Below, piece by piece: positions 54,581 to 62,113 of a stretch of 64,000 bases of DNA. Under the pieces are notes generated by a model. The model did not search any database. It worked only from the letters and a program-made list of their open reading frames with translations, and had not been told where the DNA came from. The position numbers were made by a program, and so were the translations under genes. Source of the stretch: Isoetes taiwanensis (lineage: Eukaryota; Streptophyta; Lycopodiopsida; Isoetales; Isoetaceae); the NCBI GenBank assembly GCA_021234155.1, contig JAJEKV010000293.1:64001-128000 (forward strand), given 5' to 3'. Each line of letters opens with the position of its first letter. Positions within the stretch are counted from its first letter, which is position 1.

Positions 54581-55738
54581 GTTTAGCCTTCGTATGCACC
54601 TACCATATTGCTTTGTTAAGTGTACAATTCTGCCATGCAAGTAATGCTTTTCCAAATGATGTTACAATACTTCTAGAGATATCCTTTTCCTGCATACAAC
54701 CCCATACAATGCCAGATGATGTTATAGTACCTTTTAAAGATATCCTTCTCCTGCATAGAACCCCAAACAACAGACATTGTTATGATCTTAACAAGCACAA
54801 TCTTGTTATCCATAAAAAGCTACATTAAGACTGACAAAATACTAAATTATATTTGTCTTCCTCATTCGATAGAATGTCTTGGAGAAAACAATTTACTTTT
54901 CAGGTACTGAGGTTGCCAGAAACAACTATTTTACTTTTAATACATGTCCAGGATTATACATTCCAATTGACATCTTTTGCCATGATATCAGTAGCTTGCT
55001 TTATTTCTTTAACTATCAATCTGGCTGGTCATGGTGAGTAGCAAAGCCGTGTAAGTTGGCATGCAATTTTTTTACATAGACTATACAGAAAGGTGAAAAT
55101 AATGACACGAAACTTCATCTCATAATAAAACCTTGCATTTACAACTGGAAGCCAATAATTTGTAAGCTCGCCAAATTTTTACACCATGCATGGATGTTAA
55201 GTTATTATTATGATGGAGTAGCTTGCATCATACTGTAAGCCCAAGGGATTCTAAGTACGAGGATGGGGTCAAATATCATACATCCCATCCATCCCTATGC
55301 ATGTATACCGTATAAAAATATTTCTACATGTTCAAAACGAGAAATTAGCAAACTTTTGTATGTATTCTTTACCCATAGTTAACGTTTTTACATATTTTAG
55401 TACATATCATATTCTTCTTGGTATATCTTTCATGCAACACAGCTAATATTTGCATTTTTTAATTTTTTTTCTTTCGTACGTATATATACATCAATGTTAA
55501 TAATTAAAAAAAGAAAAAAAGAATCCTTGAAGTATTTGCTAATGTTATTTACACACTACAAATGTGCACCTCCTTTGACTGTAAGACCCAAAGTCCAACG
55601 CAATGGCATGTCCTGCAGTTTGTCTCCCATGTTCTACAGCATCAAACCTTCTACATGTCCCCAGCAATATCACATATGATGTCATATCAAGAAACAATGG
55701 CATCTTGTTAAATTATATCCTCTACCTCGTATAGATAT
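54581..55738. other. non-coding AT-rich spacer
   Basis: The only structure is a ~65-bp tandem duplication at about 54,653 and 54,714 (GATGTTA.A.TAC.TCT..AGATATCCTT, then CCTGCATA.AACCCCA). No gene is supported. Confidence 0.5.
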
Positions 55739-56138
55739 ACAGGGGGTTCCAGGGGGATTTGATATTGATGTAAAAGTGACAATTCCTGAAACGATAGACC
55801 ATATCGCCAAAACAATTGAATCGGTTGTTATAAAAAAAAACATAGATCTAAGATAAAATATAATTACGTTAGCTCATTGGTTATATTGGTCAAAGTAGCC
55901 TTATTAGGACATTGAGTTATTTTGATGGAGGTTCGAGCCCCAATAATTCATATTCTAAAACCTTTAGCGAAGACGTATAGAGACTCGATATTCCATCAAA
56001 CCCTTAGGCAAACTCGTATTTCATATTTCAAAATCATAGGTGCCCCCAATCATAAATGACTATACGCAAAACGAGAGGTGCCCAGAGGCTCCAGCATACG
56101 ACCTAGGGTGCACCTCGTTTAGAATATGTAGCACAATA
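55739..56138. repeat. diverged single long unit of the 57-60 kb satellite
   Basis: About 400 bp collinear with the long unit of the array at 57,046-59,843: GGGGGTTCCAGGGGGATTTG, ATAGACCATAT, GTTAGCTCATTGGTTATATT, GGAGGTTCGAGCCCC, and the end GTGCACCTCGTTTAGAATAT. It differs at many bases, so it is older than the array units, which are nearly identical to each other. It holds the same tRNA-like module with a better A-box region. Confidence 0.8.
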
Positions 56139-56533
56139 AGAAGACCCCATCTCTCCAAGAAGACCAATAATGCAGATATAGCTTCCCAGCTTAATGTAGA
56201 TCCATGGCTCAGTTTGAGAGACACTAACTAGCACCTGACTTGATTAGTAACGCCAGCATGGCCTACATGCATATTGATTTGAATAAATGTTACATCGTTC
56301 GGCAAAATTCCTTCCTGGCAGATTTGTTCATATGTCTGAATGGCATTTATAGCCATGCTGGGCATAGACTAAATTTTGCATTCCATGATATACAAAAATA
56401 TTCTAAAAACTTGCCTTCATAAATTTGCTTGCAGTTTGAAAAATAAAAGTCGTTTATATTGTTGGCTTTTGTAAAGTTTCATTACCTGCTATCTTGAAGA
56501 TTAGGCACATGGTATGAAAAGCAAATAGAACAA

Positions 56534-57045
56534 ATGACAATAAGTATAAGACTCGGAGCTTCATTACATCCATCTCTATTGAATGAACAGGTGGATCCTA
56601 GCTTTAATCGCATATCAAGGGATGAAGTTAAGAACTTGATGGGAGAATATTTGTTGGAGTTTTGTACATGCTGCGATTTGAAGATCATCAACGGGATTGA
56701 ACGCTTTCCGATGTCTTCTCATTCAACGTACATATCTTGGAACGGTGAGAGCACCATTATCTCATTGCTCCAAGCCATGAGCATGTTGAGCATTTTGAGA
56801 TAAGTAACAAGCTGCCAGAATCAGACCATAGACCATTAAAGTTCCATATCAAAAGTACAGCCAAGAGAAAATCCTCTCAATCCTCGTTTGTTCCTAAAAT
56901 TCGGATAAAGTATTAATTAAGAGAGGAATACCAGAAGAACCTTGAAAGCTTGCTGGATATCAGTCCAAAAATGGGTACATTAGAGCATGATGCTGCTGTT
57001 CTTAAGGACAGAATTTTAGTGGCGGCAAAGGACACATTTGGGCTC
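56534..57045 (+). pseudogene. LINE endonuclease fragment
   Basis: SRDEVKNLMGEYLLEFCTCC, DLKIINGIERFPMSSHSTYI and SWNGES match the second half of an apurinic-type (EEP) LINE endonuclease, which ends ...T....G.S..D.... The later part (ESLLDISPKMGTLEHDAAVL, ...VAAKDTFG) corresponds to the linker before RT. A frameshift lies near 56,800. The N-terminal catalytic half is missing. Confidence 0.65.
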
Positions 57046-59843
57046 AATATGTAGCAAAATAACAGGGGGTTCCAGGGGGATTTGATATAGATATAATTCT
57101 TGAAACCATAGACCATATCCCTAAAACAATTCAATGGGTTATTATAAAAAAAAAACATAGATTTAAGATAAAAAATAGTCACATTAGCTCACTAGTTAGA
57201 TTGGTTAAAGTAGTCTTATTAGGACATTGAGTTATTTTAGTAGAGGTTCGAATCCCCGTATTTCATATTCTAAAAGCTTAAATGAAACCGTATAGAGGCA
57301 CGATATAGCATCAAAACCTTAGGCAAACTCAGATTCGACATCTTAAAATCATAGGCGCCCCCAATCATAATTGAGCATAGACCATATCCCTAAAACAATT
57401 CAATGGGTTATTATAAAAAAAAACATAGATTTAAGATAAAAATAGTCACATTAGCTCACTAGTTAGATTGGTTAAAGTAGTCTTATTAGGACATTGAGTT
57501 ATTTTAGTAGAGGTTGAATCCCGTATTTCATATTCTAAAAGCTTAAATGAAACCGTATAGAGGCACGATATACCATCAAAACCTTAGGCAAACTCAGATT
57601 CGACATCTTAAAATCATAGGCGTCCCCAATCATAATTGAGCATAATCGAAAACGAGAGGTGTCCGAGAGGCTCCAACATACTGATGCGGGCGTAGGATTG
57701 CCAGATCCAAACGGCCGTGGTAGTCCGGGGTGCACCTCGTTTAGAATATGTAGCAAAATAACGGGGGGTTCGGGGGATTTGATATAGATATAATTCTTGA
57801 AACCATAGACCATATCCCTAAAACAATTCAATGGGTTATTATAAAAAAAAAACATAGATTTAAGATAAAAATAGTCACATTAGCTCACTAGTTAGATTGG
57901 TTAAAGTAGTCTTATTAGGACATTGAGTTATTTTAGTAGAGGTTGAATCCCCGTATTTCATATTCTAAAAGCTTAAATGAAACCGTTATAGAGGCACGAT
58001 ATACCATCAAAACCTTAGGCAAACTCAGATTCGACATCTTAAAATCATAGGGTCCCCAATCATAATTGAGCAGCATAGACCATATCCCTAAAACAATTCA
58101 ATGGGTTATTATAAAAAAAAACATAGATTTAAGATAAAAAATAGTCACATTAGCTCACTAGTTAGATTGGTTAAAGTAGTCTTATTAGGACATTGAGTTA
58201 TTTTAGTAGAGGTTGAATCCCCCGTATTTCATATTCTAAAAGCTTAAATGAAACCGTATAGAGGCACGATATACCATCAAAACCTTAGGCAAACTCGTGA
58301 TTCGACATCTTAAAATCATAGGCGCCCCAATCATAATTGAGCATAATCGAAACGAGAGGTGTCCAGAGGCTCCAACATATGATGGGCGTAGGATTGATTG
58401 TGATCCGACGGCGTGGTAGTCGGGGTGCACCTCGTTTAGAATATGTAGCAAAATAATGAGGGGTTTCGGGGGATTTGATATAGATATAATTCTTGAAACC
58501 ATAGACCATATCCCTAAAACAATTCAATGGGTTATTATAAAAAAAACATAGATTTAAGATAAAAAATAGTCACATTAGCTCACTAGTTAGATTGGTTAAA
58601 GTAGTCTTATTAGGACATTGAGTTATTTTAGTAGAGGTTGAATCCTCAGTATTTCATATTCTAAAAGCTTAAATGAAACCGTATATAGAGGCACGATATA
58701 CCATCAAAACCTTAGGCAAACTCGTGATTCGACATCTTAAAATCATAGAAAGTCCCCAATCATAATTGAGCATAGACCATATCCCTAAAACAATTCAATG
58801 GGTTATTATAAAAAAAAACATAGATTTAAGATATAAAAATAGTCACATTAGCTCACTAGTTAGATTGGTTAAAGTAGTCTTATTAGGACATTGAGTTATT
58901 TTAGTAGAGGTTGAATCCAGTATTTCATATTCTAAAAGCTTAAATGAAACCGTGATAGAGGCACGATATACCATCAAAACCTTAGGCAAACTCAGATTCG
59001 ACATCTTAAAATCATAGGTCCCCAATCATAATTGAGCATAATCGAAACGAGAGGTGTCAGAGGCTCCAACATACTGATCTGGGCGTAGGATTGTGATCCG
59101 ACGACGTGGTAGTCCAGGGTGCACCCTCGTTTAGAATATGTAGCAAAATATAGGGGGTTCAGGGGATTTGATATAGATATAATTCTTGAAACCATAGACC
59201 ATATCCCTAAAACAATTCAATGGGTTATTATAAAAAAACATAGATTTAAGATAAAAATAGTCACATTAGCTCACTAGTTAGATTGGTTAAAGTAGTCTTA
59301 TTAGGACATTGAGTTATTTTAGTAGAGGTTGAATCCCCGTATTTCATATTCTAAAAGCTTAAATGAAACCGTATAGAGGCACGATATACCATCAAAACCT
59401 TAGGCAAACTCAGATTCGACATCTTAAAATCATAGGCGCCCCAATCATAATTGAGCATAGACCATATCCCTAAAACAATTCAATGGGTTATTATAAAAAA
59501 AAAAACATAGATTTAAGATAAAAAATAGTCACATTAGCTCACTAGTTAGATTGGTTAAAGTAGTCTTATTAGGACATTGAGTTATTTTAGTAGAGGTTCG
59601 AATCCCCGTATTTCATATTCTAAAAGCTTAAATGAAACCGTATAGAGGCACGATATACCATCAAAACCTTAGGCAAACTCAGATTCGACATCTTAAAATC
59701 ATAGGCGCCCCCAATCATAATTGAGCATAATCGAAACGAGAGGTGTCCGGAGGCTCCAACATACGATCCGGGCGAGGGATTGATGATCCGACGACCGTGG
59801 TAGTCCAGGGGTGCACCTCGTTTAGAATATGTAGCAAAATAAC
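57046..59843. repeat. higher-order tandem array: four ~695-bp units with tRNA-like modules
   Basis: AATATGTAGCAAAATAAC marks unit borders at 57,046, 57,745, 58,440, 59,135 (last bases altered in the two inner ones) and 59,826. Each ~695-bp unit contains two related subunits of about 270 and 427 bp; the CATAGACCATATCCC landmark recurs at 57,107, 57,376, 57,803, 58,073, 58,500, 58,771, 59,192 and 59,456. Each subunit has TTAGCTCACTAGTTAGATTG...GAGGTT(C)GAATCC, spaced like the A- and B-boxes of a tRNA gene. The outer 18-bp repeats lie at the edges of LINE sequence. AT-rich parts of the units are almost identical, so expansion was recent. Confidence 0.93.
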
Positions 59844-62036
59844 TAGGAGGCGAAGGGGACGCCTACATAACTCTTGGTGGGATGAAGAATGTAGAGAAGC
59901 AAGAGCTAAGATACCAGCAGGTTGCAGAGTGAAGCCCAAGTGGTATAAAAGACTCATCAGAAAGAAGAAGCGCATATACATAGAGAGGAGACAGGGGGAA
60001 ATGATGCACATGCTCAGGAATAAGCCAAAGCTTTTTGGTCCACCATTTACATCACGCCTAAACAGCCGAGGAAATAAACACACATGATCTTCTTGTCTTG
60101 GTACAAGAGTCTGTACTTTGAAGCAAATGCATTAAGCATGCAACCATGCAGGTACAAATGGAGCTTTTTTCAAGAAATGAGATCAAATATCAACTTGAGA
60201 GGATGAGTAATGGAAAAGCAAAGAGACTTAGAGGGGCTAACAGCAGAATTGTTGAAGTGGGGTGGAGAAAAATTGTGGTACAAGCTTACAGATATGATGA
60301 ATAGAGCTACTAAAGAGGGCCTCCCAAAAGATTGGCGCACATGTAGGGTTGTACCGATACACAAGGCAGGCAGCATGCAGGATGTCAAGAACTATCGCAC
60401 AATCATGGTTGGAAGTGTTTTCTCTAAGCTTTTGGGAGCTTTGTTGGAGCACAAACTTAGTAACTGGGCTGAGACTAATGGGAAAAGAGCAAAAGGCCAA
60501 GCGGGTTTTAGGAGAAAGCATAGCACATTAGATCATATCTTGACAATGAGGACATTGATTGAACAAGCTAAGGGCCCAAGGAAGGCGTTATATGTAGCTT
60601 ACATAGACTTTTCCAAAGCATTTGACACCGTTCCCAGATATGAACTAGGAGCTAGGATGGAAAGAATTGGGATTCCGAGTGCTTTAAGGGGTGCTGTAGC
60701 AAAACTGTATGAGGAAGTGTTGGTCAGATTATCAGTTCATATGCCTGAGGAGATACAGAGCACGATTGGAGTCAAGCAAGGATGCCCCTTGTCTCCAACA
60801 CTATTTGGGATGTTTATAGATGAGCTAGAAGATTGGCTCTGAGACCGGATTTTGAGGCACCATTTGGGAAGGTACATAATTCAATTACTTTTATATGCAG
60901 ATGATATAGTGTTGTTGTCAGATTCTCAAGAAGGTTTACAGCAACATTTAGACAATTTGAGCATTTTTTGTGATGATAAGAAAATGAGTGTAAATATGAA
61001 GAAGACCAAATGCATGGTCTTTGGGACTGTAAATAGACCTTGTTTCAGATACAAAAATCTACCAGTTGAGATTGTGGATCACTATAAATATCTGGGGATT
61101 GAATTGTGCTCCAATTATAGTTGGAAGCGTTGTGTCAAAAACAGAGTAACGGGGAGGGAAGACGGCATCGCATAAAGATGCTCATACGATGTCACAAGGC
61201 ATCTCAGTCTTGGCATATGAAAAGAATGTTGTTTAGGACTTTAGTACAAACAGTGACATTATATGGATCCCAAATTTGGGGGCCGCCCTTATCTCCAAGG
61301 CTTTGGGCAAGAGTGGAGAGCGTGCTCAAACTATTTTTGCAGGAGGAATTAGGGGTCAAAAGATCGATACAATATGAAATCCTGTTAGCAGAGGCAGGGA
61401 TGTTGCCCCTAGAGGCAGAAGCATTATGTCAAACTTTGTCTTATGTGGGTAGACTACGGCAACTGGATGATGTGAGACTCCCAAAGGTAGCAGCTAATCT
61501 AACACGAGAAAAAGGTTGGATGTATGATGTGGTTAAATGGATGGAAAGGTGGGGGATCTCAGAAGCAGACTGGCCAGATTCTGAGGAAGGAATCCGAGAT
61601 TTGGTGCAGCTCAAGTTTGTTGAGAGGATGTGCCAAAAGCATAGCACACGTCTTGATTTTTATAGAGCTGAAATCAATCCAATGATAATTTACACGGAGC
61701 AAGATTATCTGCAAAAATCAAAAGCAGTGTGGATAAGGAGGGTAATTGCTAGATATCGCACGAGCTCTCATAGACTAAAAGTGGAGACAGGTAGGTGGAA
61801 CCAAATTCCAAGAGAAGAGCGCATTTGTAAGTGCTGCGATGAAGACCAGGTGGAAGACGAATCACATACTTTCCTTTTTTGTAGCCAATCTGGGGAGCAT
61901 AAGACAGAGACATGGTATAACTGAGACGTCTTTCTATGATTTGTTACAAAGGGACCCAAATCAATTGGGTAAATTTATGCTAGATGTTGAAAGGCATCGA
62001 GCTCTTATATTGAAATTGGAGAACATCTCATTGTAA
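59844..62036 (+). pseudogene. LINE reverse transcriptase and C-terminal region (few lesions)
   Basis: The pre-RT segment is NSWWDEECREARAKI and RKKKRIYIERRQG. After a shift near 60,090, the frame 60,210-61,165 has KNYRTIMVGSVFSKLLGALL, QAGFRRKHSTLDHIL, YVAYIDFSKAFDTVPR (motif A), GVKQGCPLSPTLFGMFIDEL (motif B), a TGA at 60,840, then LLYADDIVLLS (motif C, intact YADD). A shift near 61,155 leads to the thumb (LVQTVTLYGSQIWGPPLSPR) and the zinc motif RICKCCDEDQVEDESHTFLF. A last shift near 61,905 gives ...RHRALILKLENISL and a stop at 62,036. RT copies LINE RNA into chromosomal DNA by target-primed reverse transcription. Four lesions prevent expression as read. Confidence 0.88.
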
Positions 62037-62076
62037 ATGATGCCTCATGGCCCTAAGGGTCGACCCGAGGCAAGAT

Positions 62077-62113
<37 letters not shown>

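Follow-up and report, generated by a model that had tools for sequence, protein, structure and literature searches.

A tandem array inside a LINE seems to come from the recent insertion of a non-coding, very abundant mobile element able to enter as several head-to-tail copies

Results

Four two-module units interrupt a LINE

Positions 57,046-59,843 of the window (the whole stretch of DNA analysed here, 64,000 nucleotides long) hold a real array, in which four units of ~695 bp interrupt a LINE between its endonuclease and reverse transcriptase (RT) domains. Positions within the element are numbered from its start, U1. The features of the locus are as follows.

55739..56138, + strand: older, diverged member of the family, ~82%, which probably survives from an array; the end of another unit lies just before it, at ~55723-55739
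56498..57045, + strand: endonuclease-side part of the LINE, left of the array and ending ...GGACACATTTGGGCTC, from comparison with the uninterrupted relative L031 (56498 is a provisional left limit)
57046..59843, + strand: inserted array, four ~695-bp units and up to 18 nt of a fifth
57046..57744, + strand: unit 1, 699 bp
57046..57079, + strand: conserved 5' element start U1-U34, AATATGTAGCAAAATAACAGGGGGTTCCAGGGGG, its first A being a possible target base
57184..57255, + strand: tRNA-like stretch of the first module, with motifs that we take to be A-box-like (TTAGCTCA, 57184) and a B box (GGTTCGAATCC, 57245)
57745..58439, + strand: unit 2, 695 bp
58440..59134, + strand: unit 3, 695 bp
59135..59825, + strand: unit 4, 691 bp
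59734..59823, + strand: 3' subterminal inverted repeat AAACGAG...CTCGTTT, just before the unit end
59826..59843, + strand: overshoot, the first 18 nt of the element again after unit 4, absent from the empty site; the final AC are possible target bases
59844..62113, + strand: RT side of the LINE up to its (ATT)n tail, right of the array

The spacing of the sequence AATATGTAGCA, together with the module starts, confirms the four ~695-bp two-part units inside one LINE that the initial annotation had described. Indeed, AATATGTAGCA occurs at 57046, 57745, 58440, 59135 and 59826 (and also at 56123, within the diverged copy), giving unit lengths of 699, 695, 695 and 691 bp. Each unit carries two copies of a ~269-bp module, with starts at 57107, 57376, 57804, 58074, 58500, 58771, 59193 and 59456 and steps of 263-271 bp inside units and 422-428 bp across them. 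Tandem Repeats Finder listed three of the four module pairs and, its longest period being 500, was blind to the 695-bp unit. The complete 18-mer lies at the outer edges (57046 and 59826) and at 57745, and its final bases deviate at 58440 and 59135, in agreement with the earlier observation of an 18-bp sequence at both outer edges and at or near the unit borders. The GC content of the element is 38%. When the 3' inverted repeat was folded as DNA the z score was -2.57, with 4 of 200 shuffles equally good, and in 63 aligned copies the standard changes at its 7 pairs were one-sided only.

The diverged single unit noted earlier at 55,739-56,138 is also real and corresponds to U17-372 at 82% identity, plus a 17-bp end. 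It is preceded by the end remnant of another unit, ACCTCGTATAGATATA, whose score was matched by 0/500 shuffles. This copy predates the array and is probably itself what is left of one.

The 18-bp edge sequence is the start of the element

Uninterrupted relatives of the host bear out the claim that the array was inserted into a LINE. In L031, the closest of them, a 668-aa open frame spans the site, with the endonuclease at residues 9-263 and RT from 505, and the right LINE part in the window gives an RVT_1 match. Unoccupied LINEs were recovered by joined-flank search: six relatives (L031-L036, 83-97% identity) read across the site uninterrupted and without the 18 bp, and a seventh (L039, 72% identity) likewise crosses it. 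After the host LINE, at 62075-62113, there is an (ATT)13 tract that is probably the LINE tail.

The empty site in L031 reads GGGCTC/ACTAGG (slashes mark junctions) and the filled site GGGCTC/AATATGTAGC...AAATAAC/TAGG, which leaves a target duplication of 0-1 bp. The 18 bp had been interpreted as a target duplication, an interpretation that we reject, because the six LINE empty sites lack them and elements at other loci also begin with AATATGTAGC. The edge sequence belongs to the element start (U1) and is no target scar.

The array belongs to a very abundant family

Matches to the family start (4,325) and end (5,022) with up to 3 mismatches were found across the genome (controls, 0), in line with the earlier suggestion of a dispersed founder family. 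The basic unit is ~431 bp long and comprises the U1 start, a head, a module and a 3' part ending CTCGTTTAG. In the 695-bp form the ~269-bp tRNA-like module is doubled (U331 back to U62). This form is present at other loci, even as single units (L008), and therefore probably arose outside the host LINE. Five loci hold a single unit (L021, L024, L026, L027 and L029), and L005 mixes 431 and 695 unit types. A 161-bp module stretch is identical in 5 of the 10 loci having one resolved module stretch, which means that the family has been recently active; both the recent activity and the higher-order, two-module unit of 695 bp that had been proposed are upheld.

Units of one array have private changes in common, as in L012, where ~U34-48 are missing at all five heads. 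The mean distance between units was 0.064 within arrays vs 0.093 between them, in a sample of 44 single-module units from 12 loci that excludes the units of the window; in L015, L020 and L025 homogeneity within the array was barely above between-array similarity. Exact start and end matches recur across ~30 kb (C24:699-732 kb) and ~12 kb (C361:15-28 kb), as would be expected if the family forms long arrays there; the sequence read was C24:698.6-703.6 kb (L015).

That the array grew inside the LINE, as first proposed, is not established: other loci also have arrays of several units and the 695-bp variant, and parts of the array structure hint at joining during insertion, although growth in place is possible. 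Taken together, these data indicate that a non-coding mobile element, present in very many copies and seemingly able to enter as several head-to-tail units at once, inserted here recently.

The tRNA-like module

Both box motifs had been attributed to each subunit. This holds for the A-box-like TTAGCTCA, found in 8/8 modules, but the intact B box GGTTCGAATCC is present in 2/8 only, the first and the last, and the six interior modules read GGTTGAATC (57107-59729). The boxes lie on the sense strand at tRNA-like spacing, ~139 nt inside the unit from the element start. ARAGORN found no tRNA gene in the window, and the RNA fold of the tRNA-like stretch was no stabler than that of shuffles (z -0.55). 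No Rfam ribozyme or RNA family was recognized in the window at gathering thresholds, or at 55600-59900 with E values up to 10, where nine matches to RNA families (snoRNA, miRNA and sRNA) all fell below cut-offs. With no tRNA recognized, an unremarkable fold and a probable template on the other strand (see Discussion), a role of Pol III is unproven. For the same reason of strand, the idea that a tRNA-derived element seeded the satellite is weakened, although the tRNA-like module itself stands.

The left end is fixed and the right end is variable

The first sample was obtained with a query from which the first 19 bases of the unit had been removed, and this gave at least 123 matches (29 of 2,502 candidates were scored). 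From it 26 places were taken, one array on C974 (14.555-14.564 Mb) and one on C975 being left out. The start could be resolved in 26 of the 27 loci (window included): 24 begin at U1 (AATATGTAGC) and 2 at U2, and L018 is without element start. The flanks of these 26 appear unrelated. Since the first query contained the unit head, it favours left-complete copies. A search with a 3' piece avoids this bias; 40 of 1,606 candidates were scored, and 20 stretches, equal to 21 of the 40 places, were retained, mainly already analysed loci being omitted. Four of the 20 lie inside arrays, and the other 16 begin at U1 (13), U2 (2) or U163 (1). In L006, L007, L017, L025 and L030, moreover, the sequence after an incomplete unit starts anew at U1 or at most 2 nt away from it.

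The right ends of the 27 loci are far more varied: 10-12 nt beyond U431 in 11, 18-21 nt beyond in 2, 1-7 nt beyond in 6, at U430-431 in 2, and truncated or messy in 6. An overshoot of 1-21 nt into the next U1 is hence found in 19/27 loci, single-unit insertions included. The longer overshoots are missing from the empty sites (LINE, L007, L014 and L024) and, as they also occur in single units, the template must have run on from U431 into U1. The shortest overshoots can be target bases, as the AATA of L026 is present in its empty site. In a second sample of 40 copies, chosen for an intact start, right ends were found at U73, U91, U109, U205 (twice), U213, U310, U413 and U416 (twice), and others closer to the unit end; L055 is not counted as truncated, for a diverged end follows.

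Some right ends are more complex. L068 (196-519) shows U1-213 followed by inverted U200-89, which resembles a strand switch during synthesis, and L046 stops at U109 and continues with another short piece of the start. Right ends or switches at U416 (CCAGGG) recur in L053, L062, L018 and L059, as if this were a preferred stop.

The exact 18-mer with a foreign continuation was found at 50 sites, and all 8 fetched were right ends of the family with an 18-nt overshoot; these 8 include all three recurrent continuations (found at 4, 2 and 2 sites, the first with a one-base shift at one site). A longer element sharing the start is therefore not supported, and no larger or partner element with the same start was found in this search by one exact 18-mer with 8/50 sites fetched.

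Insertion takes place at (T)G/A-rich targets

Empty sites were found for at least 6/27 and at least 9/33 loci tried, in pooled joined-flank searches in which 40 of 2,463 and 40 of 5,442 candidates were scored; as 40 candidates were scored per search, the hitless loci (21/27 and 24/33) may still have empty sites. The 17 targets considered are the joined-flank empty sites, from which L075 was dropped as an ambiguous paralog, plus those of the LINE, L009 and L064. Target base +1 is A in 17/17, and A occupies +2, +3 and +4 in 9, 11 and 11 of 17. The last base of the left flank is G in 26/54 (background G 20%), preceded by T in 15/54, these 54 flanks excluding 11 array-interior starts, one startless locus and one duplicate. 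Insertion targets are (T)G/A-rich, and the ten bases to the right of the cut are more similar to AATATGTAGC than are shuffles made within each site (5e-05). Element and target both begin with A, so the A at U1 may come from the target.

No duplication longer than 1 bp was seen at 15/17 targets, and losses ranged from none to ~15 bp (6 in L010, 13-14 in L053, ~13 in L021 and ~15 in L028). Right joins show short shared bases, with CC added in L014 and a switch in L059. Two loci have created duplications: one of 103 bp in L009, identical and flush, and one of 9 bp in L064, the paralogs of both being single-copy. Both loci were picked because their flanks repeat, so 2/17 is not a rate. In both, the motif is borne by the cut adjoining U1 (the base right of the cut was read from their own right-hand copy; the L064 paralogs have C there), which indicates that U1 was joined to the target 3' end. 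A flank duplication in L021 was rejected as a target duplication, since it predates the insertion.

Differences between interior units

The C of the B-box CG is lost in 6/6 interior modules and retained in both edge modules. Across arrays, interior modules show 139 indel events and 125 substitutions, 205/264 of them in seven ten-base stretches holding CG, and mean edits per module are 8.3 for interior modules, 4.8 for edge modules and 6.8 for single-module loci. Interior differences may hence be partly assembly or consensus error at (possibly methylated) CpG, or partly CpG decay, which makes the unit number and the fine divergence unfit for dating.

Discussion

In our judgement there is about an even chance that the family inserts by target-primed synthesis from U1 on a circular or multimeric template, arrays being largely made during insertion. 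An endonuclease would nick the top strand at a (T)G/A site, the freed target 3' end would prime synthesis at U1, the circular or multimeric template would be copied for one or more rounds, and the product would be joined to the other target end via microhomology. RNA of the strand opposite to the tRNA-like boxes would serve as template, and the enzyme would have to be supplied in trans. The precise junction between U1 and the target 3' end, with a sloppy junction opposite, has the polarity of target-primed synthesis (and also of HUH transfer), and target duplications of variable and sometimes considerable length speak for two independent nicks, hence for priming. The overshoot requires that U431 run on into U1 in the template, as in a circle or a multimer, and from such a template arrays can be inserted whole. 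The restarts near U1 in L006, L007, L017, L025 and L030 and the mixed units of L005 suggest joining during insertion, and the private changes common to the units of an array (L012) would result if one template was copied repeatedly, or if the array grew in place. Against priming stand the 15/17 targets at which no duplication exceeds 1 bp, an uncommon outcome of LINE-type priming, the lack of a partner element in the search with one exact 18-mer and of any recognized ribozyme or RNA family, the shortest overshoots, which can be target bases, the tRNA-like boxes, which face the wrong way for such a template, the single-strand HUH transposase, which has the same polarity, and the homogeneity within arrays, equally expected from in-situ growth. 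We regard it as doubtful that the family is a ribozyme-free circular-template plant retroposon, whose RNA circle would be copied into start-like nicks for one or many rounds, yielding whole satellite arrays per event.

The main alternatives explain part of these observations. Insertion of a single unit, followed by growth in place through unequal exchange or replication slippage, is possible, if unlikely: it agrees with the private changes common to the units of an array and with the single-unit loci, but independent arrays all start in the same phase, and the mixed types of L005 and the U1 restarts after incomplete first units (L006, L007 and L017) are hard to obtain by unequal exchange. A rolling-circle HUH nuclease of Helitron or Helentron type would cut before AATATG in both element and target, join the 5' end, copy one or more rounds and overshoot the end. 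The fixed 5' end, the head-to-tail multimers, the overshoot past the start and the 3' subterminal inverted repeat all fit this mechanism, as do the targets without duplication (15/17), their likeness to the element start (5e-05) and the abundance of Helitron_like_N in the genome (1,813 candidates, 150 of them scored, all above the cut-off). We nevertheless think it unlikely, though possible, given the created duplications of 103 and 9 bp, ends without TC...CTRR, insertions not consistently at AT or TT, and no larger element with the same start in the search with one exact 18-mer.

The two remaining readings are far less probable. An ordinary tRNA-derived SINE moved by an L1-type LINE would explain why the A-box-like and B-box motifs are spaced as in a tRNA and why targets are A-rich; it is highly improbable, however, for an element without a poly(A) end or a regular short duplication, whose start lies ~139 nt upstream of the boxes, whose fixed end is on the wrong side, in which no tRNA gene was recognized and whose template would be antisense to the boxes. 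Assembly error is also a very unlikely source of the array, or of its unit number and internal differences. The confinement of B-box C loss to interior modules and the concentration of interior edits at CG stretches speak for it, but single-module loci (6.8 edits) have no fewer edits than edge modules (4.8), and CpG decay would likewise place changes at CG. Moreover, the element itself is real, as shown by single-unit insertions that are clean and have matching empty sites, and by the recurrence of its ends at other loci; only copy number and fine differences are doubtful.

Comparison with known systems leads to a similar picture. SINEs derived from tRNAs are short, non-coding and abundant, with a tRNA head at the 5' end, a 3' tail and regular short target duplications. 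The family is likewise short, non-coding and abundant and has tRNA-like boxes; it differs in having no poly(A), no regular duplication and no tRNA head at its start. Penelope-like elements are known for variable target duplications and tandem partial copies, both seen in the family, but no hammerhead was recognized in the window, and no coding partner was found in the search with one exact 18-mer. Among TRIM elements, Cassandra has reportedly been found in tandem arrays. Helenus elements are short and carry Pol III boxes, with one family in Selaginella, according to the part of the source cited (PMC10886601). The family shares with TRIMs a short length, boxes of tRNA or 5S type and the tandem arrays, and departs from them in lacking 5-bp target duplications and in having a fixed left end and a variable right one. 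We file the family among non-autonomous, multimer-forming elements, the SINE and TRIM definitions failing on the features tested.

The closest in anatomy are the animal non-LTR retrozymes, which in the cited passages have a type I hammerhead in low-GC, non-coding units of 150-450 bp, occur as dimers to large multimers and express circular RNA, with no LTR, PBS or PPT described there and target duplications only sometimes (PMC7229834). The family resembles them in its short, non-coding, low-GC tandem units at several loci (PMC7229834), but has no hammerhead or other Rfam ribozyme here, resides in a LINE-rich plant-like genome, and its circle would follow from the overshoot. Helitrons, Helentrons and HINE/DINE-1 elements leave the target mostly unchanged, prefer A/T-rich targets and include high-copy non-autonomous forms with a 3' subterminal palindrome, some of them with tandem repeats, in the sections cited (PMC4067079). 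The family likewise has A/T-rich targets, non-autonomous units in high copy number, a 3' subterminal palindrome and tandem repeats. Helitron-like HINEs are closest to the family in leaving most targets unchanged (PMC4067079). Unlike Helitrons, the family has no 5' TC, 3' CTRR or consistent insertion between A and T, has created two target duplications, and showed no pair of subterminal inverted repeats, one at each end. Helitron proteins are abundant in the genome, and none was linked to the family ends in a narrow test with one exact 18-mer.

These results call for caution, in that repeated edge sequences are not to be taken for target duplications. With thousands of start and end sites, and with empty sites in the same genome for many of the loci examined, the family allows direct tests of whether the template is a circle or a multimer and whether it is RNA or DNA. 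If arrays do arrive ready-made, satellites could be seeded at many places with no need for amplification on the spot, which bears on the long-standing question of how satellites spread.
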